A model generated the notes under the pieces. That model had not been told where the DNA came from and did no database searches. It saw only the letters and a program-made list of their open reading frames with translations. Below, piece after piece: positions 144 through 12,948 of a DNA stretch of 13,792 bases; the first letter of the stretch is position 1; every line of letters begins with the position of its first letter. The stretch comes from an uncultured Ruminococcus sp. (GTDB lineage Bacteria; Bacillota; Clostridia; Oscillospirales; Ruminococcaceae). The stretch spans positions 1 to 13,792 of the forward strand of contig CAMWVM010000015.1 in assembly GCA_947177715.1 (NCBI GenBank), in the 5' to 3' direction. Position numbers and translations under genes: made by a program.

Positions 144-3100
144 TTATTTAACTTTAACACTCTTTGTCGCATACGATGCGTTGTAGGTCTTGCCGCCCAC
201 AGTTCTGTACGCCTTTACAGTGAAGTAATAGGTCTTGCCCTTAGTCAAGCCTGTTTTTGTGTAGCTTGTTCCTGTTGTAGTTTTCAGAGCTACCCATTTA
301 CCGTTCTTGCTGGTCTTATAATACACCTTATAACCTGTAGCACCGCTCACCTTGTTCCATTTTACAGTTGCTTTTTTGCTTCCTGCGGTCAGTTTGAAAC
401 TTACCGTTGTGGGATTTGTGCTTGTTGTAAAAGTCGAATATTTCGGACTAAGATAGGTTGTTCCATTCAAAGTTTTATATGCTCTGACAGTGAATTTGTA
501 TGTTGTTCCCGAACTCAACTTTGAGAATGTATATGATGTGTTCTTTGTATTGGCAACAGATTTCCACTTCTTTGTTGAAGTGTTGTATTGATATACTCTA
601 TACCCTGTTGCACCAGACACCTTGTTCCAGCTCATTTTCACCGTGTTTGCTGATGTTGTGAAGTTAGTTTTTGTGATATTTGCAGGATTTGTTGTAGTAG
701 TCAACTGCGGATAGCTTGAACTTGTTATTTCCTTGCCACTTACGGTTTTATACGCCTTAACTGCAAACTTGTATGTAGTTCCTGCACTAAGTTTTGAAAC
801 AGTGTATGTATTTGAATTAGTTGTAGTCTTAGCAACTCTTACCCAAGTTTTCTTTGCATTATCATATTTGTATATAATATATCCGTCTGCTCCCGAAACC
901 TTGTTCCATGTGAGTTTAACTGCACTTGCTGATGTTGAAGAAGCTTTAAAATTAGATGCAGTTGCAGGAATAATATTGAAGTTCATTTTAACAGAACCCA
1001 TATAGCTGCCCTTACCAGTAACTGTAACTGTCGCCGTTCCTATATTAATGTTGTTTGAATAAGAAACCGTGTAATCTGAATCAGCGATCAGAGTTGTTGT
1101 TCCGTCTTTTATTGTAACACTCGGCTTCTTTTCTGAGCCGTCGTAAGTATATGTTGATGTGTTTAGTTTAATTGATGCTTCACTAATTGGTTTCAGAGCT
1201 TTTTCCAATGCTAAAATAGCAGCATTCAGGTGTTCAACCGCTTCATTTACAGCTGCCTGACTGTGAGGAGCAGCAATTTCATCTTTTGCTTCCTGAAGCT
1301 CTGTTATCATTGAGTCCCATGACTGAGCAGTATAATCAGATTGTTTTAATGCTTCTGCTTTCTGAATTACGTCTGCGAGAGCTGTGATATCAACTTCATC
1401 ATATGATACTTTTACGATGTTTTCCTCATTTGCCTGTATGTCAAATGTAAAATCTTTATATCCAAGAGCATAAACTGTTAATCTCCAATAACCTGTTCCA
1501 TCTGTTCCCTCAGGTAACTGACAACGAAGTGAATCTGTAAGTCCAAGCTGAATACCCATTGACTTGTGCATCCAGTTATCAGCAGCAAATTTTGTGCCGT
1601 ATGAGACAAGCTTGTTTTTATAACTGCTGTCATTACCATAATAATCCCAACGTACAGTTTGCAAGTTAGCGCCAAGAGCGCCATATCCTTCACCGTTCAA
1701 ATCCACTCTGAGAAATGCTCCGTATGCTTCTGCATCGTCAGCAGCTCTTACAGTAACAGTAATATCAGTTGCCTTTTTCTGTTCAACATCTTTCAAACCT
1801 GAGTCTGAACCCAATGAACGTTCACTAAACTTAAATGTACCGTCTGCTTGCTTTTCTGTAGTTTTAAGTCCATTAGTATTTTCTGATACCTCTGCTACTT
1901 CACTATATGCCGATAACTTATTTTCACCATATCCGCCAACCAATGAAGCATTGTTTTTTGTTACGGGATAAAGCTTACAGAATTCCTTATATTCCGAGGA
2001 TTTTACCTTAACGGGAACATACTTTATTCCAGTAACCTCATAATAATCCATAGTTTTGGTTGTGCCGTCAGTTAAAGACAGAGTTCCTTTTTTATATCCT
2101 AAAGATGTTCCGTCTGTAAGGTATAGAGTTGAACCATCTTGCGACCAATGTGAAAGCTTATATGCATTTCCTTCAGTATCATAAATTGTTGCCATGCACT
2201 GATAGCTTCCTCGGTGAAGTCCGTGATTAGTTGTTGCACGAGAAACTACATCGAAAGCGCCTTTATCTGTTTCACCCTTTGCGTCAAGCTCATCTGAAGA
2301 AGCCGTCATATCAGTTCCGCTTAGAAAAACATTTTCATTTTCCCAATACTCACTCCATGTAAGCCCTGCATAAACATACTGATACTCAGCAACTTCAAGA
2401 GATGTCGGAATGTTATAAACTCCACTGTCTGTGATATATTCGATATTCGTAATTGTATGACCGATCATATCTTTATAATGTTCAGAATCAGTAGGACAAT
2501 TATGTACAGCAGTTGTTGTTCCCGTACACCATGAAAGTTCACTTACTCTCCATATATTTTCAAGATGTCTTAAACCATAGCTTTTTCCGTCTTCTGTTTT
2601 TATAATTACTCCATAAATCGTGCTGCTGTCAAATGGCAGTCCGTCAATGGAAACCTGATAATCTCCATATTTTGAATCTGCTGTAATTTCAGCGTCAGCA
2701 TCAAAAACAGTAACAGTTTCCTTACCTTTTATTTTACTGAAAACAGGATTTCCGTCCAAATCAAATGAAAGCTCTTTATAATTTTTCGGAATCTCACTTT
2801 CAGATAATACATAATAAGAGTATTTTTCATTTTCAAATAATGACTCTTTTCCAGTATAAACTGTTTCTGCTGTTTGTCCACGATTCGTTGTAGTGATTGT
2901 AATAGAATTATCATCCGTAATCTCTTTATATTTAGTTAATTGAGATACATCGCTGACTTTAACAGGATATGTAACACCTGTTATATCAGTTCCCTCACTA
3001 TCCACATGAAAAGACCCAGCTACTAAAGTACCTGTTCTTGTTTTCTGCTTTGTTGCAGAAGTAACACTGTCAACACGAATATCATTAACAATATCCGCCT

Positions 3101-3257
3101 TATAAAAATCATCATAAGGAATATTCATAAGAATATACGTTCCATCTGATTTTTGTCCATTTTCTTCAGCAAAAGCTGAAATACTGAACATACTTGCTGT
3201 AAGTGAAGCTGTCATAGCTAACGCTATAGCTCGAGTAAAAATTGTTTTACTTTTCAT
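144..3257 (-). CDS. Secreted Tp47-like protein with FIVAR, Ig-like and three FN3 domains
   Basis: A 1037-residue exported protein. Residues 1-30 are a signal peptide (basic start, hydrophobic core, AFA cleavage site before EENG). Residues about 37-620 resemble Firmicutes proteins annotated with Treponema Tp47 penicillin-binding-type domains: YILMNIPYDDFYKAD near 41, GSFHVDSEGTDITGVTYPVK at 81-100, and a second region at 510-605. A helical FIVAR-like segment covers 625-688, an Ig-like segment 693-763 (YDGSEKKPSVTI, YTVSYSNN), and three FN3 domains 766-1036. I see no LPXTG, SLH or C-terminal membrane helix, so it is released or held by the FN3/FIVAR part. The start is set by AAGGAGTG five bases before ATG. 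The gene lies 97 bp behind the flavin operon but has its own palindrome and AT-rich promoter region. Actual beta-lactam binding is unproven; the ligand is unknown. Confidence 0.85.
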   Translation of the reverse strand: MKSKTIFTRAIALAMTASLTASMFSISAFAEENGQKSDGTYILMNIPYDDFYKADIVNDIRVDSVTSATKQKTRTGTLVAGSFHVDSEGTDITGVTYPVKVSDVSQLTKYKEITDDNSITITTTNRGQTAETVYTGKESLFENEKYSYYVLSESEIPKNYKELSFDLDGNPVFSKIKGKETVTVFDADAEITADSKYGDYQVSIDGLPFDSSTIYGVIIKTEDGKSYGLRHLENIWRVSELSWCTGTTTAVHNCPTDSEHYKDMIGHTITNIEYITDSGVYNIPTSLEVAEYQYVYAGLTWSEYWENENVFLSGTDMTASSDELDAKGETDKGAFDVVSRATTNHGLHRGSYQCMATIYDTEGNAYKLSHWSQDGSTLYLTDGTSLGYKKGTLSLTDGTTKTMDYYEVTGIKYVPVKVKSSEYKEFCKLYPVTKNNASLVGGYGENKLSAYSEVAEVSENTNGLKTTEKQADGTFKFSERSLGSDSGLKDVEQKKATDITVTVRAADDAEAYGAFLRVDLNGEGYGALGANLQTVRWDYYGNDSSYKNKLVSYGTKFAADNWMHKSMGIQLGLTDSLRCQLPEGTDGTGYWRLTVYALGYKDFTFDIQANEENIVKVSYDEVDITALADVIQKAEALKQSDYTAQSWDSMITELQEAKDEIAAPHSQAAVNEAVEHLNAAILALEKALKPISEASIKLNTSTYTYDGSEKKPSVTIKDGTTTLIADSDYTVSYSNNINIGTATVTVTGKGSYMGSVKMNFNIIPATASNFKASSTSASAVKLTWNKVSGADGYIIYKYDNAKKTWVRVAKTTTNSNTYTVSKLSAGTTYKFAVKAYKTVSGKEITSSSYPQLTTTTNPANITKTNFTTSANTVKMSWNKVSGATGYRVYQYNTSTKKWKSVANTKNTSYTFSKLSSGTTYKFTVRAYKTLNGTTYLSPKYSTFTTSTNPTTVSFKLTAGSKKATVKWNKVSGATGYKVYYKTSKNGKWVALKTTTGTSYTKTGLTKGKTYYFTVKAYRTVGGKTYNASYATKSVKVK
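150..962 (-). repeat. Three tandem fibronectin type III domain repeats
   Basis: Coding repeats at about 687-962, 414-680 and 150-410. Each carries the same core: W-N-K-V-S-G-A-[DT]-G-Y followed by Y, then a T-Y-[KY]-F-[AT]-V-[KR]-A-Y strand. The DNA word ACCTTGTTCCA (plus strand) recurs near 348, 618 and 900. The units have diverged, so they are old duplications rather than a recent expansion. Confidence 0.85.
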
Positions 3258-3290
3258 AAATACACTCCTTTATAAAATTTTATATTAAAA

Positions 3291-3306
3291 GTTAGCTATA
3301 GCTAAC
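3291..3306. promoter_or_regulatory. Perfect 16-bp palindrome upstream of the Tp47/FN3 gene, candidate operator
   Basis: GTTAGCTATAGCTAAC is its own reverse complement. It lies 33 bases upstream of the start codon, right beside an AT-rich stretch (3271-3290) that offers several -10-like hexamers, so a bound protein would block the promoter. A close relative, GTTAGCTGTTGCTAAT, stands before the flavin operon at 8430-8445. The GTTAG/CTAAC half-sites recall the core of DtxR/IdeR boxes, but the spacing differs, so the family is a guess. On the minus strand the palindrome is followed by TTTT, so a weak terminator for the upstream operon is the alternative reading. Confidence 0.55.
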
Positions 3307-3354
3307 CATTAACCAAGACTATATACTTTCGTCGCTAAATTAAAGCTACCTAAG

Positions 3355-3858
3355 TTAGTGAAATTGTCTTGTATTTTGCTTTATTAAAATTGGCAATAGG
3401 TTACTTGAAATAAAACCAATTAAAAAGCCTGTTCCAACACCTGCAATCATAAGAATGGGAAGATAAATCACAACAACAGATGTTTGTATAACAAAAGCCG
3501 CTGCAATAATTTGACTTATATTGTGAAATACAGCCCCAACAATGCTTACTCCTACAACAGAAAAAATGTTAGTTTTCTTAAATATTATCATCACAATAAG
3601 GCTTAGCAAACCGCCTGAAATGCTATAAATGAGTGACAAACCGTTTCCGAATAAAAGTCCGGAAATGAAAATCCTCAGCAATGATATTATGCATACATCT
3701 TTATAATTAAGAAAATACAATCCAGTTACTATAACCAAATTAGCCAAACCAAGCTTTATACCCGGTATCCCAAAATTAAATGGGATTATAGCTTCTACAT
3801 AGCTAAAAATCAATGCCAGAGCAACAAACGCACCGACAGTCGCCACTCGTCTTGCCAT
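3355..3858 (-). CDS. Gx transporter / Hpre_diP_synt_I family membrane protein (EetB-like)
   Basis: A 167-residue polytopic membrane protein with five to six hydrophobic segments. The stretch FNFGIPGIKLGLANLVIV near the N-terminus is the family hallmark (IPGIKLGLAN). Members are annotated as Gx transporters or heptaprenyl diphosphate synthase component I, and an equivalent called EetB sits in the Listeria flavin-based electron-transfer locus beside a NusG-domain-II protein, as here. Its biochemical role is not settled; it may form a membrane unit with its partner EetA-like protein. The ATG at 3858 is preferred, with an AGTGGTG-like site upstream; a GTG four codons earlier (3870) is possible. 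It begins 21 nt after the NusG-domain-II gene ends and is the last gene of the operon. Confidence 0.8.
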   Translation of the reverse strand: MARRVATVGAFVALALIFSYVEAIIPFNFGIPGIKLGLANLVIVTGLYFLNYKDVCIISLLRIFISGLLFGNGLSLIYSISGGLLSLIVMIIFKKTNIFSVVGVSIVGAVFHNISQIIAAAFVIQTSVVVIYLPILMIAGVGTGFLIGFISSNLLPILIKQNTRQFH

Positions 3859-3879
3859 TTTAAGCACCACTTTTCTGCA

Positions 3880-4284
3880 TCATTTTGCAACAGCATCTAT
3901 CTCCGTTTCTTCAGTATCTACATTTCCCTCTGATATTTCAATTACAATTTTATGAGGAAGACAAACTATGGTTTCCCCTTTTTTTGATATACCTTTTTGA
4001 TTAACACAATAAAGATCCGTACAATCTGCTTCTTGCATATGTACTATACCATTTTTTATTTCAATATGATTATAGCCATCATCAGTTTCAACATTTATAA
4101 CAGTATCTTCCTTTAACGAATATTTGCCATACTCTTTTCCGGCAACAGATATAATCACCTCATTGCCTATAGCATATCCATTCCTTTTTATGAAATAGAA
4201 AAAAATCAATATTGATAAAATAATAATAGCTACAGCGAGAAATATATCTGTAAATCTTATTCTAAAAATATTTTTTTCCTTCAT
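3880..4284 (-). CDS. NusG domain II-type membrane protein (EetA-like)
   Basis: A 134-residue protein with one N-terminal membrane helix (about residues 13-32) and an outward-facing domain of the NusG_II type. The typical end is clear: ADCTDLYCVNQKGIS at 87-100 and GETIVCLPHKIVIEI at 103-117, with Cys88, Cys93 and Cys108 conserved in the family. Despite the name it is not the transcription factor NusG; single-pass proteins of this kind accompany Gx transporters and FMN-binding proteins, and EetA of the Listeria electron-transfer locus is one. A GGAG site precedes the ATG, and only one base separates it from the Fe-S gene stop, so translation is likely coupled. The cysteines could form a disulfide or take part in redox transfer; that is inference. 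Confidence 0.85.
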   Translation of the reverse strand: MKEKNIFRIRFTDIFLAVAIIILSILIFFYFIKRNGYAIGNEVIISVAGKEYGKYSLKEDTVINVETDDGYNHIEIKNGIVHMQEADCTDLYCVNQKGISKKGETIVCLPHKIVIEISEGNVDTEETEIDAVAK

Positions 4285-4285
4285 A

Positions 4286-5146
4286 TTACACTCCAGCTAA
4301 GTACAATAACAATGATAAAATTAAAATACGCAACAAGGTAAATACAATTTCATTTCTATGAATTCTAAAGAAACCGATATGTATGTTATTTTTCGGACAA
4401 GTATTAACACATTTTTGACACTGAAAACAATCGCCGCTGCATTTCATTTCATTTTTATCAGGTAAAGATATATTTGCAGGACAACAGCGCTTACAAGCAG
4501 AGCAACCTTTTATACAATTATTTTTATCTCTCCGAAGTGAAAATAACGGAATAACTGGCAACCATGAAAAAACAGCTCCCATTGGACATAAGAATTTACA
4601 GAAAAAACGTTCATGTAAAGCCATGCCTATCAGTATCAAAACAAATAATACTATGCCCACTATATACCCTGCTAAATGAAAGTTTCCAGATCTTATCAAA
4701 GAAAATACATCCCAAGGATTCCAGCCTGACATTTTTGAATAAACTCCTGAAAAACAAAGCAACACAATTACACTCAGCAACAAATATTTTATATACAAAA
4801 GTTTCTTTTCCCATTTCCCCTTAAACTGTATGGGTTTTTTATGTATTTTTTTGCAAATCCAAAGATATGAACCGTGCACTGCATCTCCCAGACTTCCAAA
4901 TGCACAAGCGAAACCACAAAATAAACGTCCAAAAACAATGGTAAATCCACACAATACAATTAATATTGCCACAAAGGAGTTGAATTCTATAGATTGTTTT
5001 AATCCAATCTGTGTAAAAATATATTTTACGCCTGAAAATGCTGAGGTAAAAGCTGATGGAAGAAAAATAAAAAACAATAATTGTACAACTCTGCGAAAAT
5101 AATTTAAAATCCTTTTTTGCGTCTTTGTTTTAATCTTTTTGCTCAT
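4286..5146 (-). CDS. NapH/NosR-type membrane protein with two [4Fe-4S] ferredoxin motifs
   Basis: A 286-residue electron-transfer protein with about five membrane helices. Two loop motifs typical of NapH/NosR proteins are present: FGRLFCGFACAFG (Cys77, Cys81) and ERFFCKFLCPMG (Cys183, Cys187). The usual proline of the first motif is alanine here. A ferredoxin part follows with Cys211-x3-Cys215-x2-Cys218-x3-Cys222-Pro and Cys240-x2-Cys243-x2-Cys246-x3-Cys250-Pro, enough for two [4Fe-4S] clusters, plus an extra Cys236. It probably passes electrons across or into the membrane toward the FMN proteins encoded upstream. The ATG at 5146 is chosen because the TTG at 5167 lacks a good ribosome site, while GGAAAGG lies 12 bases before the ATG. 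It overlaps the preceding gene by 17 nt. The electron donor is not in the window. Confidence 0.88.
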   Translation of the reverse strand: MSKKIKTKTQKRILNYFRRVVQLLFFIFLPSAFTSAFSGVKYIFTQIGLKQSIEFNSFVAILIVLCGFTIVFGRLFCGFACAFGSLGDAVHGSYLWICKKIHKKPIQFKGKWEKKLLYIKYLLLSVIVLLCFSGVYSKMSGWNPWDVFSLIRSGNFHLAGYIVGIVLFVLILIGMALHERFFCKFLCPMGAVFSWLPVIPLFSLRRDKNNCIKGCSACKRCCPANISLPDKNEMKCSGDCFQCQKCVNTCPKNNIHIGFFRIHRNEIVFTLLRILILSLLLYLAGV

Positions 5147-5597
5147 ATTTATTTTCTGCCTTTCCAAGAGCCTGCTTAGCTGCGTTTTTTATTCCCGCTG
5201 AACTAAAAGTAGCACCGCTTATTGTATCAACATCGGCGGACTGGTTATCAATAATCATATCAATTATGGAAACAGCAGTATCAAAGTAAGCGCTGTCTTC
5301 TCCTTCTGCTGATATTATTTTTAATTCTGAAACACTGCCTTTTTCAATAACTGCCTGAACTTTTATTTGTCCGCAAAACCCCTTAGCTTCGCCCTCATAT
5401 ACTCCATCTTTATATCGTGAATCAACATTATCTTTATTAGATTTATCAACTCCTGATTGAAGCGAATCCTGTTCAAGCTCACTTTTAAGACGTAAAATTT
5501 CCTCTGTTTTGTTTCTGTCTGCAATAACTAAATTGTAAAAAATCAATATTCCTATAATTGTAAGCAAACTTATAGTTTTGGTCCAAAACGAATTCAT
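5130..5597 (-). CDS. Membrane-anchored protein with one FMN-binding domain
   Basis: A 155-residue protein with one N-terminal membrane helix (about 8-25), a short charged helical stalk (about 28-45) and a C-terminal FMN-binding domain (PF04205 type). The domain starts with YKDGVYEGEAKGFCGQIKV and ends with DTISGATFSSAG; Thr130 in the D-x-x-S-G-A-T motif is the expected site where ApbE attaches FMN through a phosphoester bond. It lies next to the four-domain protein and likely exchanges electrons with it on the outer face of the membrane. The start is the ATG at 5597, with AGGTG five bases upstream; an in-frame TTG at 5612 is less likely. The gap to the preceding gene is 17 nt. A Cys replaces the usual residue in GFxGQI, which is unlike the sister domains. 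Confidence 0.9.
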   Translation of the reverse strand: MNSFWTKTISLLTIIGILIFYNLVIADRNKTEEILRLKSELEQDSLQSGVDKSNKDNVDSRYKDGVYEGEAKGFCGQIKVQAVIEKGSVSELKIISAEGEDSAYFDTAVSIIDMIIDNQSADVDTISGATFSSAGIKNAAKQALGKAENKYEQKD

Positions 5598-5614
5598 ATA
5601 ATCACCTGACAAAT

Positions 5615-7285
5615 CTATTTTCTTACAGCATTTTTCAAAGCTGCATTTACCGCTTCAATCAACGCATTTGATGAGCATGTTGCTCCTGAAACTACATCAA
5701 CATCAGCTTCTAATCCTGTTTTTAAAATCTGAGAAATAACACCAATATATTTTGAGGTTCCATTGGCAGCACGATTTATATATCGATCATTATATGTATC
5801 ATAATCATTTCCAACGCCCCTAACATTAGTTATGGAAAGAATATTATCATTTTTAATTGTAATAGTAGCTGATAAAATATAGGATTCAAAATCCTGATAA
5901 TCATCCGGATTACAAACTGCGGTTGCCGTATAAATTCCGTCAATATACTTAGTAACTGTTTCATTTAATGATTCATCAGAATTTATTGAATCAACTGTTG
6001 AACTTACATCATCATTTTTACTTGAATCATTATCTATATAACTGTCTTGAGAATCATCAGTCAATCCTTTTGTTGCACGCTCGGCTTCTTTTAGAGCATT
6101 ATTCACAGCCTCTAAAATACCCTCAGAGCTAAATGTTGCTCCTGAAATGGTATCAACGTTTACTGTCTGTTTTTGTGTAATTATTTTAACTAAGCTTTCA
6201 GCTTTTGAAAAGAACACATCGTCATCTTCATGTTTAAGTATGAGAATTGTATCTATGTTTTTATTCTTTATTGAAACCGCTGCTACAACTTCACCGTGAT
6301 AACCTTCACCTCTTCCAATATATACTCCGTCTTTGTAATTGAAATTTCCCTTAACGGGAATTGTAATTTCATTTTTTGTGTTTTCTGCATTTTTGTCCAA
6401 ATCAGAAGTTATTTTAGCATTTTTTAATGCATCCCTTACAGCTTCAATAAGACCTGCTGAGCTAAATGTAGCTCCGGAAATGGTATCTACATTGGTACTT
6501 TGAGTTGCAATAATCTTAGATAACAAAGATGATGCATTTTGCATATAATCCTTGCCGTCTTTTGAATTTAATATCTTAATTTCTGAAATTTTTCCGTTTT
6601 CAACTTTCACTTGAACTTTTATCTCCCCTGCAAAACCTGCTCCCGATCCAACATATACGCCATCTTTATAGCCATCTGCATCTATAATTTTTTCTACTTT
6701 AGGAGGATTTGAATATTCAGTATTTGTTTTAGTGGTGCCAAGCTGAGAAGATGATTCATTAATCACACCATTAACAGACGCTTTCTCAAGAGCATTTCTT
6801 ACAGCTTCAATAATACCTACAGAGCTATATGTTGCCCCTGAAACAGTATCTACATTTGTACTTTGAGAAGATAATATCTTAGACAAAATAGAAGACGCTT
6901 TCTGTAAATAACTGCTGGTATCAGATGAACTCAAAATCTTAATGTCAGCAATATTGCCGTCTTTTATTATAACCTGAACTTTAATCTGTCCAGCAAACCC
7001 ATTACCTACTCCAATATAGGTTCCATCTTTATAAATTCCATTTTCTGATACTGTTTCAACTTTAATTTTTTCGCTTGTTGTTTGTGAATTTTCATTAACA
7101 TCATTTTCTGATAATGAACTTGTATTCTCATCTAAAGAAAAGCCATGTGATTCATCCTGATTTGTTTTTTCTGCTGTGAACTCAGGAGTTACATATCCAC
7201 TTAACGCAACTACCACACAAACAGTCAAAATAACTGCTGGCAAGAAATTTAAAAATAATGTTATACTGTTTCTCAAGTTTTTCAT
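5615..7285 (-). CDS. Membrane-anchored protein with four FMN-binding domains (multi-flavinylated, PplA-like)
   Basis: A 556-residue protein with a short cytosolic start, one membrane helix (about 10-29), a Ser/Asp/Glu-rich linker and four FMN-binding domains at about 83-168, 206-290, 317-401 and 447-555. Each ends in a flavinylation motif: DTVSGATYSS, DTISGATFSS, DTISGATFSS and DVVSGATCSS, with acceptor threonines near 152, 273, 384 and 536. Flexible acidic linkers separate the domains. It should carry four covalent FMNs outside the membrane and act as an electron wire or shuttle, as two-domain PplA does in Listeria, though PplA is a lipoprotein and this one uses a helix anchor. The ATG at 7285 comes one base after the apbE stop, with AAGGA upstream; a TTG at 7306 would overlap apbE. 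Domain 4 is the most divergent and has an inserted loop. Confidence 0.92.
   Translation of the reverse strand: MKNLRNSITLFLNFLPAVILTVCVVVALSGYVTPEFTAEKTNQDESHGFSLDENTSSLSENDVNENSQTTSEKIKVETVSENGIYKDGTYIGVGNGFAGQIKVQVIIKDGNIADIKILSSSDTSSYLQKASSILSKILSSQSTNVDTVSGATYSSVGIIEAVRNALEKASVNGVINESSSQLGTTKTNTEYSNPPKVEKIIDADGYKDGVYVGSGAGFAGEIKVQVKVENGKISEIKILNSKDGKDYMQNASSLLSKIIATQSTNVDTISGATFSSAGLIEAVRDALKNAKITSDLDKNAENTKNEITIPVKGNFNYKDGVYIGRGEGYHGEVVAAVSIKNKNIDTILILKHEDDDVFFSKAESLVKIITQKQTVNVDTISGATFSSEGILEAVNNALKEAERATKGLTDDSQDSYIDNDSSKNDDVSSTVDSINSDESLNETVTKYIDGIYTATAVCNPDDYQDFESYILSATITIKNDNILSITNVRGVGNDYDTYNDRYINRAANGTSKYIGVISQILKTGLEADVDVVSGATCSSNALIEAVNAALKNAVRK
5621..7039 (-). repeat. Four FMN-binding domain repeats
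   Basis: Repeat units lie at about 6782-7039, 6416-6670, 6083-6337 and 5621-5947. Units 1 and 2 are closest (GFAGQIKVQV / GFAGEIKVQV; SSQSTNVDT / ATQSTNVDT), unit 3 changes GFAG to GYHG, and unit 4 is longest. This order suggests stepwise duplication, with the 1/2 split most recent. Confidence 0.85.
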
Positions 7286-7286
7286 G

Positions 7287-8363
7287 CTATAAACTTTCCT
7301 TTTCAATTACTTCATAATCCAAATCTGATGAAAAATAATCTTTAACCCCATCCGTTATATACAATTCATTTTCTTCAGAATAAAATATTACATCAAATTC
7401 ATCACTATGCAATTTCCAAAAACTCAAAGCTTTATCAAGCCCCATTACAAACAAAGCAGTGGAAAGTCCGTCTGCCAAGGTTCCATCATTACTAATAATA
7501 GTAACAGATTTTAAACCGCTTTCAGAGGGATAACCTGTCTTCGGGTCTAAAATATGATGATATCGTTTACCATTCTGTTCAAAATATCTTTCGTAACTGC
7601 CAGATGTTATAACGGCTTTATCTGAGATTTGCAAAATCCCCAAATATTCTGTTTCACTATCAGGATTTTGTATTGCAACTCTCCAAAGTGAACCATCAGG
7701 TTTAGTACCTAACACTTGAACATTTCCCCCAAGACAAATCATTCCGCTTTCAACACCAGACTCTTTAAAAATATCCATAATCTTTGATGAAGTATAACCT
7801 TTAGCTATACCGCCAAAATCAACTTTCATGCCCTCTTTTTGAAATGATACATCATTATTGTTAAAATCAATATTATTTGTATCAGTTAATGTTAATAATT
7901 TTGATATTGTTTCATTATCAGGAATTCTAAAATTCTTATCAGCAAAGCCCCATGCTTCCATTAAAGGATACACTACAGGATTAAACGCACCTTTTGTCTG
8001 TTCTGAAATATCCAATGCGCTTTTAAAAACTTCAGAAGTGTCTTCAGACAAACTTCCCTTTCCATTAAGATTTAAAGAATATATTTCACTGTTTTTATTA
8101 CCGGTGGAAAGCAATGAATCTAATTGATTAATTCGTTCTTTAGCCTTATTTAAAGCATTTTCAGCATTTTCACCATAAGCGGAAAGTGTCATATATGTAT
8201 CCATAGCAAACAAATCAATAGTTTTTGCTTCTGTTTTGTCAACAGAAATAACAGAGCTCTCATTATCTGTATCGGACGAAAATTCTGACTTATCATCACT
8301 AACAAAAGTACAGCTTGATAGCATTATTGAAAATGATAATGTTATTAGTAGTTGTTTTCTCAT
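7287..8363 (-). CDS. apbE: FAD:protein FMN transferase, lipoprotein form (ApbE family)
   Basis: A 358-residue enzyme that splits FAD and attaches FMN to a threonine of target proteins, needing Mg2+. Residues 1-17 are a lipoprotein signal with lipobox LSSC (Cys18), so it acts on the outer face of the membrane where its substrates are. Family motifs are all present: MDTYMTLSAYG (54-64), VDFGGIAKGY (181-190), CLGGNVQVLG (210-219), ITSGSYERYF (252-261), HHILDPKTGYP (269-279) and ADGLSTALFVMG (297-308). The length is normal. A ribosome site like AAGGCGG stands about seven bases before the ATG. As first gene of the operon it modifies the five SGAT sites encoded by the next two genes. It corresponds in role to Listeria FmnB. 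A candidate operator lies about 67 bases upstream. Confidence 0.95.
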   Translation of the reverse strand: MRKQLLITLSFSIMLSSCTFVSDDKSEFSSDTDNESSVISVDKTEAKTIDLFAMDTYMTLSAYGENAENALNKAKERINQLDSLLSTGNKNSEIYSLNLNGKGSLSEDTSEVFKSALDISEQTKGAFNPVVYPLMEAWGFADKNFRIPDNETISKLLTLTDTNNIDFNNNDVSFQKEGMKVDFGGIAKGYTSSKIMDIFKESGVESGMICLGGNVQVLGTKPDGSLWRVAIQNPDSETEYLGILQISDKAVITSGSYERYFEQNGKRYHHILDPKTGYPSESGLKSVTIISNDGTLADGLSTALFVMGLDKALSFWKLHSDEFDVIFYSEENELYITDGVKDYFSSDLDYEVIEKESL

Positions 8364-8429
8364 ATTATCCCGCCTTCATATGCAAAATAAGCCTTTTGTG
8401 TTACATGTTATTATGTTTTACTTCACTCA

Positions 8430-8445
8430 GTTAGCTGTTGCTAAT
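8430..8445. promoter_or_regulatory. Second copy of the GTTAGC-type box, upstream of the flavin operon
   Basis: GTTAGCTGTTGCTAAT matches the palindrome at 3291-3306 at 13 of 16 positions and keeps the TTAGC/GCTAA half-sites with the same spacing. It lies about 67 bases before the apbE start. A minus-strand CATAAT (-10-like) lies downstream of it in the reading direction, but I could not fix a -35 box. Two matching boxes at the only two promoter regions of this functional block argue for one regulator; iron or manganese sensing by a DtxR-type repressor is a guess. Confidence 0.55.
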
Positions 8446-8573
8446 CGTATGTATGATATCATAAATACAACAATATGTCAACGAAGGAAGTTAAAGACCT
8501 ATGGTTATTTAATATAATTATACAAAAATCACAAACTTTAATATTAATTTATGTTATTTTTACCTATTGTTAG

Positions 8574-8603
8574 TTTACTCACAGAAACTTTTTAAACTTT
8601 AAT
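8574..8603 (+). promoter_or_regulatory. Possible promoter for a short plus-strand transcript
   Basis: A TTTACT (8574-8579), 18-base spacer and TTTAAT (8598-8603) match the sigma-A consensus at 4 of 6 and 5 of 6 positions. They sit just ahead of a ribosome site and ATG. In DNA this AT-rich such matches also occur by chance. Confidence 0.35.
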
Positions 8604-8626
8604 GTACTGAAAAATGAGGAGCTAAG

Positions 8627-8695
8627 ATGAACTCTGACGGTATGAATATAATAAAAAACTATTATATCTTCTTGATTAATAAAGAGAGTGTGTAA
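8627..8695 (+). CDS. Possible 22-residue peptide gene
   Basis: The ATG at 8627 has a good ribosome site, GAGGAG at 8616-8621, five bases upstream, and the frame runs 22 codons to TAA. The peptide begins MNSDGMNIIKNYYIFLINK; its middle is hydrophobic and aromatic, and there is no signal peptide or known motif. A plausible promoter precedes it and a hairpin with a T-run follows at 8723-8753, so the whole unit would be about 140 nt and divergent from the flavin operon. I recognise no family. It could be a small membrane peptide, a leader peptide, or a chance frame within a small RNA; only the ribosome site and context support coding. Confidence 0.3.
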   Translation: MNSDGMNIIKNYYIFLINKESV

Positions 8696-8722
8696 GGATA
8701 GAATATCACTTATGACATATAA

Positions 8723-8753
8723 AAAAGGATATCCCAATATGAGATATCCTTTT
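8723..8753. terminator. Hairpin terminator between the short ORF and the tRNA gene
   Basis: Arms AAAAGGATATC (8723-8733) and GATATCCTTTT (8743-8753) pair over 11 bp around a 9-base loop. On the plus strand it could end the short-ORF transcript; on the minus strand it is followed by six T and would act as a second stop behind the tRNA gene. Confidence 0.65.
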
Positions 8754-8843
8754 GATTAAAGTTAAATTTGTTTCTAATAAATTTCCAATGTTCAATTTTC
8801 TTCAAGTTTAAAAATATTGTGTAATATCTAATTCCATATAACT

Positions 8844-8880
8844 TAAAATCCCGATTCTGCTAAGCAAAATCGGGATTTTA
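8844..8880. terminator. Strong hairpin terminator of the tRNA-Lys gene
   Basis: Thirteen-base arms at 8844-8856 and 8868-8880 (TAAAATCCCGATT and its complement) form a stem, with a further TGC/GCA pairing in the loop. It begins two bases after the tRNA's encoded CCA on the minus strand. The T-rich 3' arm fits an intrinsic terminator. Confidence 0.8.
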
Positions 8881-8882
8881 AA

Positions 8883-8958
8883 TGGTGAGCTATCGGGGAT
8901 TCGAACCCCGGACCCTTTGATTAAAAGTCAAATGCTCTGCCAACTGAGCTAATAACTC
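8883..8958 (-). tRNA. tRNA-Lys (anticodon UUU)
   Basis: A 76-base cloverleaf. The acceptor arms GAGTTAT and ATAGCTC pair over 7 bp with one G-T, the D arm has AGCTCAGTTGGCAGAGC, the anticodon stem TTTGA/TCAAA holds loop CTTTTAA with anticodon TTT (8923-8925 on the plus strand), and the T arm is CGGGGTTCGAACCCCG. The 3' CCA is encoded (8883-8885). It is a solitary tRNA with its own promoter and terminator. Confidence 0.97.
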
Positions 8959-8984
8959 AAATACTCTCCTGCAACGACTTAATT

Positions 8985-9013
8985 ATTATATCAAAGATTC
9001 ACTCATTTGTCAA
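8985..9013 (-). promoter_or_regulatory. Consensus sigma-A promoter of tRNA-Lys
   Basis: Reading the minus strand: TTGACA (9008-9013), a 17-base spacer, and TATAAT (8985-8990), a perfect match to consensus in both boxes and spacing. The tRNA 5' end is 26 bases downstream of the -10 box, as expected for a strong stable-RNA promoter. Confidence 0.93.
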
Positions 9014-9233
9014 GAGTGTTTTTAAATTTTTCTTTTTGTAACAATAATAATTAAAATAATTATAGATTATTCTACATTATAGACAAAAATAATAGAAAAT
9101 ATTCAAATCACAATTATAATTATGAGAAAAAAGTAGCTTTGATCATTCCTTTTAATAATAATGCCTGAGTAATAAACATAAATCCTTTTTCAACTTTTTA
9201 TTATCTTAAGCTAAAACTATTTTATAATTAGGA

Positions 9234-9572
9234 CTAACTATCCATACTATAATTCTTATTTAAATATTCCAAACCCCAGTTACACATAGAATCTAAAACA
9301 GGCACTATGCTTCTTCCAAAATCAGACAGACTATATTCAACCTTAGGCGGCACAACAGGATACACAGTCCTTATGATAAGTCCGTCTTTTTCCAAATCTC
9401 TAAGCTGTTGTGCAAGCATTTTTTCTGTTACTTTCGGTATGAGTCGCTTCAGTTCGCTGAATCTCTTTTTATTTTCAATCAGATGCCATAAAATCACTGC
9501 TTTATATTTTCCGCCAATTAAAGCAATCGTAGCTTCAACTGGACAATTTAAAGTGCTTGGACAAATATTCAT
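9234..9572 (-). CDS. HxlR-family winged-helix transcriptional regulator
   Basis: A 112-residue DNA-binding protein, normal length for the family. Motifs match HxlR/YodB-type regulators throughout: CPVEATIALIGGKYKAVILW (10-29), RFSELKRLIPKVTEKMLAQQ (37-56, recognition helix), LRDLEKDGLIIRTVYPVVPP (57-76, wing) and YSLSDFGRSIVPVL (80-93). Cys10 in CPVE is at the place of the redox-sensing cysteine of YodB/HypR, so thiol or quinone sensing is possible; that is inference. An excellent ribosome site (AGGAGGAG) precedes the ATG. It is divergent from a nitroreductase gene, a very common pairing in which the regulator controls the neighbour, and it may also control itself through the inverted repeat at 9602-9620. 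Confidence 0.93.
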   Translation of the reverse strand: MNICPSTLNCPVEATIALIGGKYKAVILWHLIENKKRFSELKRLIPKVTEKMLAQQLRDLEKDGLIIRTVYPVVPPKVEYSLSDFGRSIVPVLDSMCNWGLEYLNKNYSMDS

Positions 9573-9601
9573 ACTCTCCTCCTACACTTACTTTTTAGTT
9601 A

Positions 9602-9620
9602 GTACTTTACAATAAAGTGC
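9602..9620. promoter_or_regulatory. Inverted repeat between HxlR and nitroreductase genes, candidate operator
   Basis: ACTTTA-CAA-TAAAGT (9604-9618) has perfect 6-bp arms, with one further matched pair beyond a mismatch. It is flanked by GTAC at 9602-9605 and 9621-9624. It lies immediately upstream of the nitroreductase -35 box and between the two divergent starts, the usual place for an HxlR-type site. Binding is inferred, not shown. Confidence 0.5.
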
Positions 9621-9624
9621 GTAC

Positions 9625-9653
9625 TTGTTAATAATAAATTATCATGATATAAT
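9625..9653 (+). promoter_or_regulatory. Promoter of the nitroreductase gene
   Basis: TTGTTA (9625-9630), a 17-base spacer and a consensus TATAAT (9648-9653) stand 61 bases before the preferred start codon at 9715. The candidate operator abuts the -35 box. Confidence 0.75.
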
Positions 9654-9714
9654 TATAGCATAATCGATTATGTTATTCAAGCTGTACAGCAAAAAATTGA
9701 AAGGAATGAATTTT

Positions 9715-10221
9715 ATGAGTTTTTCACAATTAATTCAAAAAAGATATTCTGTCAGAAATTATACAACGCAACAAGTGGAAGAGGAAAAGCTTAATGCTAT
9801 TCTTGAGGCGGGAAGACTTGCACCTACAGCTGCTAATTTACAGCCTGTAAAGGTTATTGTAGTTAAGAGCTGTGAAGCTATGACAAAAATAAAAAAAGCT
9901 GCAAACATATATAATGCTCCACTTGCACTGATTGTCTGTGCCGATCATAAAACGGCTTGGACAAGACCGTTTGACGAAAAGCAAACTACCGATATTGACG
10001 CTACAATTATCACAGATCATATGATGATACAGGCTACAGAACTTGGTTTAGGCAGTGTATGGATTTGCTATTTCAAACCGGATGTATTAAAAACAGAGTT
10101 CAATTTACCTAATAACCTTGAACCAATTAACATTCTGGCGATTGGCTATGCTGATGAGAATGATGAACCAACATTTAAACAGCGAAATTCTATTGAGGAA
10201 TTCACACAGTATAATTACTGA
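9715..10221 (+). CDS. Nitroreductase family FMN-dependent oxidoreductase
   Basis: A 168-residue cytosolic flavoprotein that should use NAD(P)H to reduce nitro compounds, quinones or similar acceptors. Family motifs: RYSVRNY at 10-16 (FMN phosphate contact), GRLAPTAANLQP at 33-44, DHMMIQATELGLGSVWICYF at 101-120 and LAIGYAD at 141-147. The length is that of the short, single-domain class. The start at 9715 is chosen because AAGGA lies nine bases upstream; ATGs at 9670 and 9706 in the same frame lack a correctly placed ribosome site. It is divergent from, and probably controlled by, the HxlR regulator, giving an oxidant- or electrophile-response pair. The exact substrate cannot be read from sequence. 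Confidence 0.93.
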   Translation: MSFSQLIQKRYSVRNYTTQQVEEEKLNAILEAGRLAPTAANLQPVKVIVVKSCEAMTKIKKAANIYNAPLALIVCADHKTAWTRPFDEKQTTDIDATIITDHMMIQATELGLGSVWICYFKPDVLKTEFNLPNNLEPINILAIGYADENDEPTFKQRNSIEEFTQYNY

Positions 10222-10273
10222 TTGAAATTTTCTTAACAACATTAACATAGCTTCCATCAGATATAAACGCAGC

Positions 10274-10305
10274 AATAACTCCAGATACAATCTGGAGTTA
10301 TTTTA
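10274..10305 (+). terminator. Intrinsic terminator of the nitroreductase gene
   Basis: A perfect 13-bp stem (AATAACTCCAGAT, 10274-10286, with 10290-10302) around a 3-base loop, followed by a T-rich run on the plus strand. It may also stop the ABC operon that converges from the right, though the minus-strand side lacks a T-run. Confidence 0.9.
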
Positions 10306-10363
10306 TTATAAAGTTCCCCCTATGCTGCAATCATTAATTAAAATATGTAAGGAAGATTAAAAC

Positions 10364-10999
10364 TTATACTTTATTAATAAATCCCTTATCCATCTCATGC
10401 ACTGTATCACAAAGTACTGAAATATCTTCAGCTGAATGTGAGCATATAAGAATAGTTTTTCCCTGTTTCTTATAACTAAGAAGATACTCTCTCATATCTT
10501 TAACACCGTCTTTGTCCAGCCCATTGAACGGTTCATCAAGTATTAGTATTTTAGGATTTTCCATAATTGCCTGAGCAAGTCCCAATCTCTGTCGCATTCC
10601 AAGGGAATATTTCTTGATATGACGTTTCAGCTTCGGATCAAGCCCCACCTGTTCCATGCTTTTTTTTATTTCTTCTTTACCTATCTTGTTGTTAAGTCCG
10701 GCAAGCAGCTTTAAATTTTTATACCCAGAATAATACGGAATAAAACCCGGAGTTTCAATAATAATCCCCATATCGTCTGGGAAGTCAACGTCTTTTCCAA
10801 TCCGCTTTCCGTCTACAAAAATTTCTCCGCTTGTAGTCTTGATAAAACCGCAGATACATTTCATCAGCATAGTCTTGCCTGAACCGTTTCTGCCGATAAG
10901 TCCATGTATCTTTCCTTCTTCAAATCCAACAGTTATGTTATTTAAAATCTGCGTTTTGCCAAGGATAAGATTTACTTCTTTTACTTCTATTATATTCAT
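10364..10999 (-). CDS. ABC transporter ATP-binding protein
   Basis: A 211-residue ATPase that powers the two permeases encoded just upstream. Walker A is GRNGSGKT (36-43), the signature is YSLGMRQRLGLA (131-142; LGMRQ in place of LSGGQ, usual in this subgroup), Walker B is ILILDEP (151-157), and the switch histidine is His188. The sequence IIIETPGFIPYYSGYKNL (79-96) fits the BcrA/lantibiotic-immunity-like branch. It is at the short end for the family but complete. AGGAGGAG precedes the ATG, and it starts 11 nt after the second permease. The likely job is export of a peptide or lipid-like compound, or immunity to one; the substrate is unknown. Confidence 0.93.
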   Translation of the reverse strand: MNIIEVKEVNLILGKTQILNNITVGFEEGKIHGLIGRNGSGKTMLMKCICGFIKTTSGEIFVDGKRIGKDVDFPDDMGIIIETPGFIPYYSGYKNLKLLAGLNNKIGKEEIKKSMEQVGLDPKLKRHIKKYSLGMRQRLGLAQAIMENPKILILDEPFNGLDKDGVKDMREYLLSYKKQGKTILICSHSAEDISVLCDTVHEMDKGFINKV

Positions 11000-11010
11000 C
11001 GCTACTCCTC

Positions 11011-11883
11011 CTAACTGGCTATTTCCGAAACATTATCATAGTTAAATTTCTTAATTGCAATAAAGCAGAAAATTAGCAGAACAGCAATAAATATTGTCAG
11101 ATATGCTACTGAAAAACCCATTGACATTACCGGCTCTTTAAAATATTTTGTATAATGAAGCCATATAATGGAGTTTCCCATAGGCATTGTCCACATAAGA
11201 CTTGTTTTTATTGAGCAAAAAGCTGTTCCTAAGGATATAATAGCTCCACATAAAACAAATCCAGCTGTTTTCCGCTTTACAAGTGAAAATGCAATCAATA
11301 AAAGACCTATTATCATCAAATAAGCAAAAACAAGCAGATAGCTTTGAATTGCGGCTTCAAAAACTGAGATTTGATTATACAAATTTTCAGGAAGAAGCTG
11401 AACTCCGAAGTTTCCTCTTTTATCGGGAAACATTTTTACAAAACCTGTTGCCACATTGCTCCAACCGTTATACCAAAAACCTTTTGACAACATTGGAATT
11501 ACTGCGCCCAAGAAAATCACAGCCAAATATGAAACTGCCATAAATATAAGCTTTAGTATCTGACCAAAAAGCCAGTTTAATCTGCCTACTCTAATTATGT
11601 AAAACACTGTATTAGTATCAATCTTTGGATAGTCTGCTATCAGTGTTAAAAACACTAACGGAACTATAAGCAATATTGCCCAGGAGTTTGATATTGCTAT
11701 AAACGGCTCTAAAATGTTCAACGGTTCATTCATAAGCTCAGCATTTGCCAGCAGTGGTTCAATCGCAAAGCTATAAATGAAGATTATTAGTACGGCAAGT
11801 ATTATCATTCTTGCATCACATATCCATTTAATATATTCGGATTTAGCACAGGAGAAACTTTTTTTAAAACTGAAATTATTCAT
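11011..11883 (-). CDS. ABC-2-type transporter permease, second subunit
   Basis: A 290-residue membrane protein with about six helices (near 26-44, 63-84, 107-130, 176-200, 208-226 and 258-277) and a large extracytoplasmic loop after the third (about 131-175). The short stretch IRVGRLNWLFGQILKL (97-112) before helix 3 looks like the cytosolic coupling segment of such permeases. It starts one base after the stop of the first permease, with AGGGGTG as ribosome site, so translation is probably coupled. It would pair with the other permease as a heterodimer driven by the ATPase. I see no homology specific enough to name the substrate. Confidence 0.8.
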   Translation of the reverse strand: MNNFSFKKSFSCAKSEYIKWICDARMIILAVLIIFIYSFAIEPLLANAELMNEPLNILEPFIAISNSWAILLIVPLVFLTLIADYPKIDTNTVFYIIRVGRLNWLFGQILKLIFMAVSYLAVIFLGAVIPMLSKGFWYNGWSNVATGFVKMFPDKRGNFGVQLLPENLYNQISVFEAAIQSYLLVFAYLMIIGLLLIAFSLVKRKTAGFVLCGAIISLGTAFCSIKTSLMWTMPMGNSIIWLHYTKYFKEPVMSMGFSVAYLTIFIAVLLIFCFIAIKKFNYDNVSEIAS

Positions 11884-11884
11884 G

Positions 11885-12745
11885 CTAACACCCCTTATCC
11901 TTTCGTTTATTCATAATAAGAATAAATCCTATCAATATCACTGCCAAATACACTACATTAAACAATATCGTTTTCTTAGCAGCTAAATCAAACTCACTGC
12001 TGTAGCATAAGTTTGCAACGGCATTTGGATAAAAAGGATAAAGCCGGTCATAGATTTCAAAATCTCCTGTTTCGATACCTTTTGATATCAGCTTTTCTAA
12101 AGTTGTATTCCAAATGTAAGTAAGCAGAAACGGTATACATGTAATGAGGTAGGGATTCTTACAAAAAGAACTTAACATGAACGCAGGAAGTGTGCTGACA
12201 GCTCCATAAGCAAAAGCTGAAATCAACGTTTTTATAATAGATATACTGACACCTTCAGGTAAAAGTCCTTCCATTTCGTCAGGCGTTAAATTATAAGAAG
12301 ATAATTCCGGGAAAAGAATTACCGATATAAGTCCGAACATTGCAACGCCTATTAAAACAGCAAGTCCACCACTGATAAACGAAGCAAAAAACTTTGAAAA
12401 ATAATATTTATACTTGCCTATACGAGTTATAGTGAATCGCATAAGCCCGTTATTCCTTTCCGCACAAAAAGATACCATAAACGGAAATGCCACAATAATA
12501 GGCAAAAACATAGTTATGTAGCCGGACATTGCTTTCCGAAAAATAAATATTGAAGCAAAGTCACTATTAGTTTGAATTATATCTTTATCAAGGGTAAATA
12601 GCGCTTCAAAAACCGAATAGGTTTTTGAAGTTGCACCGTCAATGTATGCATAAGCCGTAAAGCATAGCATGCAAGTTATAAATACAGCACCTATAAACCC
12701 AGAGTTTATTATAGTTTTATTTAAATCACATCGTAATGATTTCAT
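11885..12745 (-). CDS. ABC-2-type transporter permease, first subunit
   Basis: A 286-residue membrane protein with about six helices (near 16-35, 76-94, 117-145, 168-190, 197-212 and 257-277). The segment ERNNGLMRFTITRIGKYKYY (96-115) between helices 2 and 3 is the conserved E-x-x-x-G-x-x-x-x-x-x-x-R pattern of ABC-2 permeases of this type. An outer loop at about 146-166 is acidic. A good ribosome site (GAAGGTGAG) precedes the ATG, 50 nt after the small lipoprotein gene. The gene order is permease, permease, ATPase, the reverse of the typical LanFEG arrangement. Confidence 0.82.
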   Translation of the reverse strand: MKSLRCDLNKTIINSGFIGAVFITCMLCFTAYAYIDGATSKTYSVFEALFTLDKDIIQTNSDFASIFIFRKAMSGYITMFLPIIVAFPFMVSFCAERNNGLMRFTITRIGKYKYYFSKFFASFISGGLAVLIGVAMFGLISVILFPELSSYNLTPDEMEGLLPEGVSISIIKTLISAFAYGAVSTLPAFMLSSFCKNPYLITCIPFLLTYIWNTTLEKLISKGIETGDFEIYDRLYPFYPNAVANLCYSSEFDLAAKKTILFNVVYLAVILIGFILIMNKRKDKGC

Positions 12746-12795
12746 TTTCTCACCTTCTCTTAAGTAATGTTATATTAAAACAGATAAATCTCCTT

Positions 12796-12927
12796 TTAAA
12801 CTGTTACCTTATTTGCTGAATTGAAATCAACTTTATGATTAGCCCCTTCTATATTACCTGGAGTCTGAGCACAAGAAGATAAAAGACAACTTGCAGTTAA
12901 AGAAAACATTATTAATTCTTTTTTCAT
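12796..12927 (-). CDS. Very small predicted lipoprotein (43 residues)
   Basis: The ATG at 12927 has TAGGA upstream, and the frame runs 43 codons to TAA. The product starts MKKELIMFSLTASCLLSSC and has the layout of a lipoprotein signal: basic start, hydrophobic core, lipobox LSSC with Cys19 as the lipid site. Only 24 residues would remain after processing, polar and without a known domain. It lies 21 nt behind the unknown protein gene and 50 nt ahead of the first permease, in the same direction, so it belongs to this operon. It may be a real tiny lipoprotein, such as an accessory or immunity peptide, or the front end of a longer gene lost by deletion. The signal part is clear; the function is not. 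Confidence 0.6.
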   Translation of the reverse strand: MKKELIMFSLTASCLLSSCAQTPGNIEGANHKVDFNSANKVTV

Positions 12928-12948
12928 AGTAATCCTACCATTTCCAAA

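Follow-up and report, generated by a model that had tools for sequence, protein, structure and literature searches.

Extracellular electron transfer (EET) in Listeria involves the FMN transferase FmnB (ApbE), the anchored flavoprotein PplA, EetA, EetB, and Ndh2, with demethylmenaquinone as the quinone. Both FAD export and the flavinylation of PplA were reported to need EetB, and an eetA deletion strain showed EET activity at the wild-type level (PMC9973259, 2023, mBio). The same article places eetB also beside some of the NapH-like flavinylation systems. Meheust et al. (2021, PMC8238504) counted 2465 clusters of the latter type, with the FMN domain located on a second gene in 539 of them, and described multi-flavinylated proteins with up to 13 predicted sites, as well as some flavinylation clusters encoding large wall proteins that bear domains such as FIVAR. 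For some NapH-like systems, a quinol was proposed as the electron donor (PMC8238504). Furthermore, a three-FMN protein (SaFMN3) and a four-FMN protein (CbFMN4) have been purified by Tong et al. (2023, PMC10339131), with a value of -184 mV given for the three-FMN protein. The consensus of ApbE substrates was given as D-x-x-[S/T]-G-A-[S/T] (PMC12052999).

The locus described in this study is located in a stretch of 13,792 nucleotides, hereafter referred to as the window. According to the definition in PMC8238504 (PF12801 or K19339 clustered with ApbE/FMN_bind), it represents a NapH-like flavinylation system, and it shares with these systems a PF12801 Fe–S membrane protein, ApbE, and FMN_bind proteins; however, a quinol donor was proposed for some of the published systems, whereas most of the carrier genomes tested here were without UbiA. 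With the EET system of Listeria, the locus has in common ApbE, EetA, EetB, and an anchored protein with flavinylation sites, but the cluster studied here is devoid of Ndh2 and quinone genes and features a NapH-like protein, two separate FMN proteins, and a Tp47-like surface protein. Tandem FMN_bind domains are also known from CbFMN4 and SaFMN3, and domain 1 in the present protein aligned to domain 1 of CbFMN4 (8p2b, E 8.9e-10); yet CbFMN4 and SaFMN3 were characterized as isolated proteins, and the text of PMC10339131 mentions no gene cluster, operon, NapH, or Tp47. Finally, Tp47 of Treponema pallidum (Tp0574, the 47-kDa lipoprotein, structure 1O75) shares with the surface protein its a and c domains, including an aligned D-x-V-S-R-A-T stretch, but is a penicillin-binding protein by its Pfam name, whereas the corresponding units here are part of a large secreted protein encoded beside flavin genes.

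A preliminary description of this locus had regarded its combination of genes as novel. This was overstated, since NapH-like clusters, multi-flavin proteins, and eetB beside NapH-like genes are all in print (PMC8238504, PMC9973259). The term Tp47 does not occur in the main text of PMC8238504, and searches of the open-licence literature, judged by title and abstract, returned nothing relevant that links Tp47 to flavin, FMN-binding, Lachnospiraceae, or electron transfer. The system is of a known kind, and its Tp47-type component looks unreported within the open-licence literature.

Gene Content of the Locus

Six minus-strand genes separated by overlaps or short gaps (8363..3355) were found as proposed in the preliminary description, and profile searches assigned their domains (Table 1). 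Chance as an explanation of the gene set is ruled out by the E-values of the domains and by the recurrence of the same set in other genomes. Its proposed end at position 3355 had to be revised, since the next gene on the same strand, encoding the Tp47-like protein, belongs with the six. A weak terminator-like hairpin lies between eetB and this gene and might uncouple it from the upstream genes; the consensus scan returned five terminator-like sites in total, where 3.7 were expected.

Table 1. Features of the flavin gene locus within the window.
Feature	Position	Strand	Evidence
Sigma-70-like promoter upstream of apbE	8453..8481	-	11/12 consensus bases; consensus match only
ApbE, FAD:protein FMN transferase, probable lipoprotein	7287..8363	-	PF02424 E 9.3e-91; best PDB sequence match 7esa E 7.5e-56
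Multi-flavin protein with membrane anchor; FMN_bind domains and D-x-x-S-G-A-T sites, four of each	5615..7306	-	PF04205 E 7.9e-50, 4 stretches
Membrane-anchored single-FMN protein	5130..5612	-	PF04205 E 3.3e-12; DTISGAT at residue 129
NapH-like polytopic Fe–S protein (Fer4_5), candidate electron entry point	4286..5167	-	PF12801 E 6.6e-12
EetA (NusG_II, NusG domain II protein)	3880..4284	-	PF07009 E 1e-31
EetB, probable ECF-S subunit, probable FAD exporter feeding ApbE	3355..3870	-	PF07456 E 4.8e-40
Weak terminator-like hairpin, intergenic region of eetB and the Tp47-like gene	3290..3307	-	Consensus scan
Secreted Tp47-like surface protein, proposed seventh component	144..3257	-	PF14889 E 4.7e-69; PF14888 E 2.5e-77; fn3, three stretches
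N-terminal unit, residues 36-290	2388..3152	-	No Pfam family; modelled as divergent Tp47 unit
Motif DSVTSAT, residues 63-69, N-terminal unit	3051..3071	-	Differs from the ApbE motif by one residue
Tp47 a+c unit, residues 291-616	1410..2387	-	PF14889 and PF14888; 1O75 E 1.4e-22
Motif DVVSRAT, residues 336-342, Tp47 domain a	2232..2252	-	Aligned 1O75 stretch has the same pattern

The identity of ApbE as an FMN transferase and probable lipoprotein was corroborated by its profile score (304.5 bits compared to a PF02424 cut-off of 25.6), by its alignment to 7esa over residues 40-351, and by cysteine 18, which was read in the sequence as part of a lipobox. Likewise, the two proteins described as anchored carry one N-terminal hydrophobic segment each and, together, five D-x-x-[ST]-G-A-T sites (residues 153, 274, 385, and 537 in the four-site protein and residue 129 in the one-site protein), all of which agree with the ApbE consensus of PMC12052999. 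The five threonines are predicted from sequence to be covalent FMN sites. With four FMN_bind domains and four motif sites, the larger protein falls within the multi-flavinylated class, which is defined by more than one FMN_bind domain.

The EetA/EetB-like pair was also recovered by the profile searches, and the PF07456 protein is encoded in the same window as apbE, in its neighbourhood, as is characteristic of EetB. As a homologue of the Listeria protein described in PMC9973259, EetB is a probable FAD exporter of the ECF-S type. The preliminary description had placed both proteins inside the electron wire. Supply of the cofactor is the better reading, given that in Listeria EetB was reported to be needed for FAD export and that eetA could be deleted with no reported EET phenotype (PMC9973259); by this analogy, at least EetB would serve cofactor supply rather than the wire itself.

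Proposed Electron Input Through the NapH-like Protein

The assignment of the membrane Fe–S protein as NapH-like holds. The protein features six hydrophobic segments and 17 cysteines. In an alignment of 28 NapH-like sequences (28 of 120 listed proteins, one of them being the window's own), 14 of these 17 cysteine columns were invariant, among them two clusters of four cysteines and two C-x3-C pairs. The protein scored below the curated cut-offs for NapH (TIGR02163, 72.9 vs. 213.05; NF007013, 70.4 vs. 234) and also below the curated cut-off for NosR. Searches with this protein yielded only distant matches in plasmids (five records, below 60% identity) and no match among viral contigs.

It had been proposed that the NapH-like protein takes the place of Ndh2 in a flavin-based extracytosolic path and that electrons enter without a quinone. 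The first proposal agrees with the content of the cluster, no NADH dehydrogenase having been detected among the window proteins scanned; such a protein (K03885) with a membrane helix defines the Listeria-type cluster in PMC8238504. Regarding the second, UbiA (MenA family) had no match in the window's own genome, which is 80% complete, and the search was positive in 14 of 14 reference genomes used as a control. A further 35 carrier genomes were searched, each represented by one of the 78 Tp47-anchored loci described below and selected for visible operons or long contigs; in these, UbiA was over the cut-off in two and reached E <= 0.001 in three. Absence of UbiA is common in gut Clostridia and therefore permits a quinone-free input without proving it. 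RnfD/NqrB was detected in 30 of the same 35 genomes, which only suggests that ferredoxin is available to the cells, and both RnfD and RnfC are present in the window's own genome. Together, these findings are in line with the proposed quinone-free input.

These data bear on two quinone-dependent explanations. In a Listeria-type EET system, Ndh2 and demethylmenaquinone would be encoded elsewhere and would feed the same flavoproteins, as might be expected from the shared ApbE, EetA, EetB, and anchored flavoprotein and from the incompleteness of the genome; the lack of a UbiA match in this genome, its rarity among the other carriers, and the cluster without an NADH dehydrogenase argue against it, and this explanation was set aside as highly improbable. 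Alternatively, the locus may represent an ordinary NapH-like flavinylation system that is fed by a quinol and serves an unlinked reductase, the Tp47-like gene being an unrelated surface-protein neighbour. The gene content corresponds to the published definition, and a quinol donor has been proposed in some cases (PMC8238504), but the small number of carriers with UbiA speaks against the quinol.

The operon itself holds no donor gene. A recurrent donor or regulator was sought by clustering 1084 ORFs of the 78 loci, and, beyond the known genes, only ABC ATPases recurred in more than five loci. These were assorted, comprising 22 unlabelled ORFs in 17 loci that were pulled into the EetB cluster by single linkage, and one of the 22 resembles another kind of membrane protein. 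The donor to the NapH-like protein would most likely be reduced ferredoxin or flavodoxin.

Architecture of the Tp47-like Surface Protein

The protein encoded downstream of eetB comprises two Tp47 units, a FIVAR-like stretch recognized by eye, and FN3 repeats. Its membership in the Tp47 family is based on 231.5 bits for PF14889 and 258.8 bits for PF14888, at a cut-off of 25. The N-terminal unit is modelled as a divergent Tp47 unit, as deduced from its predicted fold and from profile comparison with domains a and c: its model matched 1O75 in a structure comparison (VIA-align), and in hhalign its profile matched those of the two adjacent domains, domain a with E 1.1e-5 and domain c with E 1.3e-3 (18%). 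The kinship rests on these fold and profile comparisons, since the profile of the unit found nothing among PDB sequences except a chance match (E 0.98). With Foldseek, the model matched no PDB structure at E <= 0.001, 1O75 being absent among the 50 matches listed, and there was no match at E <= 0.001 among viral structures. FMN_bind structures were absent among the 50 VIA-align matches listed for this unit.

In an alignment of the window protein with 18 of 120 listed homologues, nearly invariant histidine and cysteine residues were observed. An FMN_bind annotation was present on 17 of the 120 listed homologues, many of these 17 being close relatives. Another arrangement was seen in locus L063 (8762-12769), in which a Tp47-like protein that bears SLH repeats and an FMN_bind domain of its own at the C-terminus is encoded beside a divergently oriented ApbE gene.

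Association of Tp47-Type Genes with Flavin Genes

To evaluate the genomic neighbourhood of Tp47-type genes, 78 loci, obtained from the best 80 of 151 candidates, were scanned with thresholds of 150 bits for NapH-like proteins, 60 for FMN proteins, and 100 for ApbE, flavin domains inside Tp47-type genes not being counted separately. All 26 loci with Tp47 a and c domains had at least one flavin gene in the fetched stretch; NapH-like, FMN, and ApbE genes were found in 25 loci each, and all three in 24. A gene of the set (EetB included) was located within 500 bp on the same strand in 24 of the 26. Among the loci with N-type units only, 28 of 52 had a flavin gene. The 24 of 78 loci without any flavin gene were all without a and c domains, some of them being cut by contig ends. 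Gene order was shuffled between loci, the Tp47-type gene being first, last, or inside, and this wide variation indicates that the link between Tp47-type and flavin genes is more than inherited synteny. The named carriers include the human gut genera Coprococcus, Fusicatenibacter, Blautia, and Collinsella, as well as Eubacterium ramulus.

The association was also analyzed starting from the NapH-like gene in 150 genomes, all from the family to which Coprococcus comes belongs. A strong match was obtained in 18 genomes (19 places), these carriers including the centre genome and two others already contained in the Tp47-anchored set. A Tp47-type gene was present in 10 of 14 loci with a stand-alone NapH-like gene compared to none of five loci with an FMN_bind-NapH fusion (one-sided Fisher p 0.011). 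The four stand-alone loci without it consisted of two cut by contig ends and two uncut ones (L147 and L150). PF14889 occurred in six of the 150 genomes, all six belonging to the 18 NapH-like carriers and featuring the domain no more than about 3.3 kb from the NapH-like gene; the chance of such a coincidence is 1.3e-6 (1.1e-5 when the centre genome is left out).

No Tp47-type gene was found at the 11 NapH-anchored places (L125-L135) that come from other members of the window's family and class, and PF14889 (Tp47_a) was detected in one of 119 genomes of the window's family, namely the window's own. Among these places, only L125 and L129 resemble the window in combining a stand-alone NapH with two separate FMN genes, L125 being cut by a contig end beside its NapH-like gene. 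Most of the 11 hold divergent or fused kinds of NapH, and our confidence in the proposed model was therefore left unchanged. At L129 (6249-8102), a 617-aa protein with FIVAR, PF07550 (Shr-like), and FN3 domains and no Tp47 domain adjoins an FMN gene and is perhaps an alternative outer module.

Tp47 a+c genes occurred with flavin genes wherever examined, and flavin operons often occurred without Tp47 a+c. The absence of the Tp47-type gene at four of 14 loci of the family sample (two of them cut) and at all 11 places elsewhere is what would be expected of an unrelated neighbour of an ordinary, quinol-fed NapH-like system. However, flavin genes at all 26 a+c loci in varied gene orders, the restriction of PF14889 to NapH-like carriers in the sample, and the existence of FMN_bind-Tp47 fusions argue against such an unrelated neighbour, and the explanation as a whole is considered unlikely.

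Near-Copy of the ApbE Motif in the Tp47 Units

Both Tp47 units carry a motif similar to that of ApbE substrates. In the N-type motif, D-x-x-[ST]-S-A-T, the aspartate, the second serine, and the last threonine were present in 55 of 55 alignment rows and the alanine in 53, and a lysine three residues past the last threonine was found in 55 of 55. In the domain-a motif, D-x-V-[ST]-R-A-T, the residues D, R, A, and T were conserved in all 26 non-gapped rows, and hhalign aligned both motifs with each other. The N-unit alignment comprised the unit of the window and a single unit from each of 54 loci, out of 71 loci with a sufficiently long unit; conservation was taken from alignments, the regular expressions having missed 60 N-unit and 10 a-unit hits, many of which were split or partial.

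The canonical glycine of D-x-x-[ST]-G-A-[ST] is replaced by serine (DSVTSAT) or arginine (DVVSRAT), and a canonical flavin site is absent from the Tp47-like protein of the window; a canonical motif lies inside the Tp47-type gene in 18 of 78 loci. In another ApbE substrate, a Gly-to-Ala change was reported to lower flavinylation to about 50% (PMC12052999). With the motif glycine missing and about half of the modification retained in that substrate, covalent flavin on the Tp47 units is possible, but it is not confidently predicted from sequence. In the structural model, the block of lowest confidence (pLDDT 73, residues 31-40) takes in the second half of the N-type motif, a placement that suggests a flexible functional loop. 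Homology of the Tp47 units to FMN_bind was considered and rejected: hhalign gave probabilities of 3% and 8% over 12-14 columns around the motif and detected no similarity outside of it, and a shared fold is not claimed.

Proposed Electron Path

With moderate confidence, we favour a quinone-independent flavin path that would lead from the cytoplasm through the membrane to the cell wall, with the Tp47-type surface protein as its outer partner. The gene content, the motifs, the co-occurrence of flavin and Tp47-like genes, and the rarity of UbiA in the tested carriers are data of this study; for the path itself, we infer direction of flow, donor, order of carriers, and acceptor, as well as the role of the Tp47-like protein as an outer docking or reductase module. 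EetB would export FAD, and ApbE would place FMN on the five threonines of the two anchored proteins. The NapH-like Fe–S protein may accept electrons from a soluble low-potential donor, bypassing a membrane quinone, and would pass them to the one-FMN protein and from there to the four-FMN protein. The latter could then reduce the Tp47-like surface protein or an acceptor that this surface protein carries.

Alternatively, the system might reduce or repair an envelope-bound target (haem, metal, disulfide, or peroxide) rather than a diffusible acceptor, with the Tp47-like protein acting as a substrate-binding module. The nearly invariant histidine and cysteine residues would suit this function, as would PF07550, a family whose name refers to the haemoglobin-interacting domain of Shr and which was found on some Tp47-type relatives and on the surface protein of L129. 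However, PF07550 was not detected in the window's Tp47-like protein, its name may mislead, and no haem-uptake gene was noted among the window proteins scanned; we regard this alternative as quite improbable.

As a more tentative extension of the favoured quinone-independent path, Tp47-type domains in general may be a redox module at which the quinone-free flavin wires of gut Firmicutes and Actinobacteria end on the outside; their invariant D-x-x-[ST]-[SR]-A-T loop would then be a place of flavin attachment, docking, or exchange, and the same might apply to the syphilis antigen Tp47. At present, this extension appears doubtful. If true, this antigen would have its biological role in flavin-linked electron transfer and not in penicillin binding. 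Under the favoured path, the human gut carriers would have a quinone-free means of electron disposal outside the cell. The tie between Tp47 and flavin genes offers a concrete hypothesis for what a major syphilis antigen does, one that is testable on proteins of harmless commensals.

In Treponema pallidum, quinone biosynthesis was said to be absent and a flavin-based RNF was proposed (PMC7512555), and the ApbE homologue was named Ftp (PMC4767422). TP0572 was described as an FMN-binding domain protein (PMC5607219), and Tp0574 is TpN47 (PMC10782976, PMC5956850). The locus numbers TP0572 and TP0574 differ by two, and from this numbering alone both genes are inferred to be close on the map. No related paper on TP0572-TP0574 was found in the open-licence literature.

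Genome Context and Further Observations

The genome containing the window consists of 277 contigs. A misbinned contig was considered, as the G+C content of the window (33.5%) raised doubt when compared to two other contigs (42.5% and 38.4%). The best foreign matches of the flank at 8400-13792 were found in genomes of the same genus, and the contig is therefore probably correctly placed.

Within this flank, a tRNA-Lys gene (TTT, 8883-8958) is preceded by a 12/12 promoter match and followed by a terminator-like hairpin of 14 pairs. The region 10364-12745 contains a gene for an ABC transporter ATPase and, adjacent to it, two genes for which NCBIfam gave no match; the top score of the ATPase was for the lantibiotic-protection type, below the cut-off, and similar DNA occurs in same-genus genomes. 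Elsewhere in the genome, an ApbE match of 60 positions lies upstream of rnfC on contig C148, in a 64-aa frame with one internal stop. A second flavin-related cluster, comprising genes for a DUF4405 membrane protein, ApbE, EetA, and EetB, is located on contig C215 (1-3464), close to a contig end.
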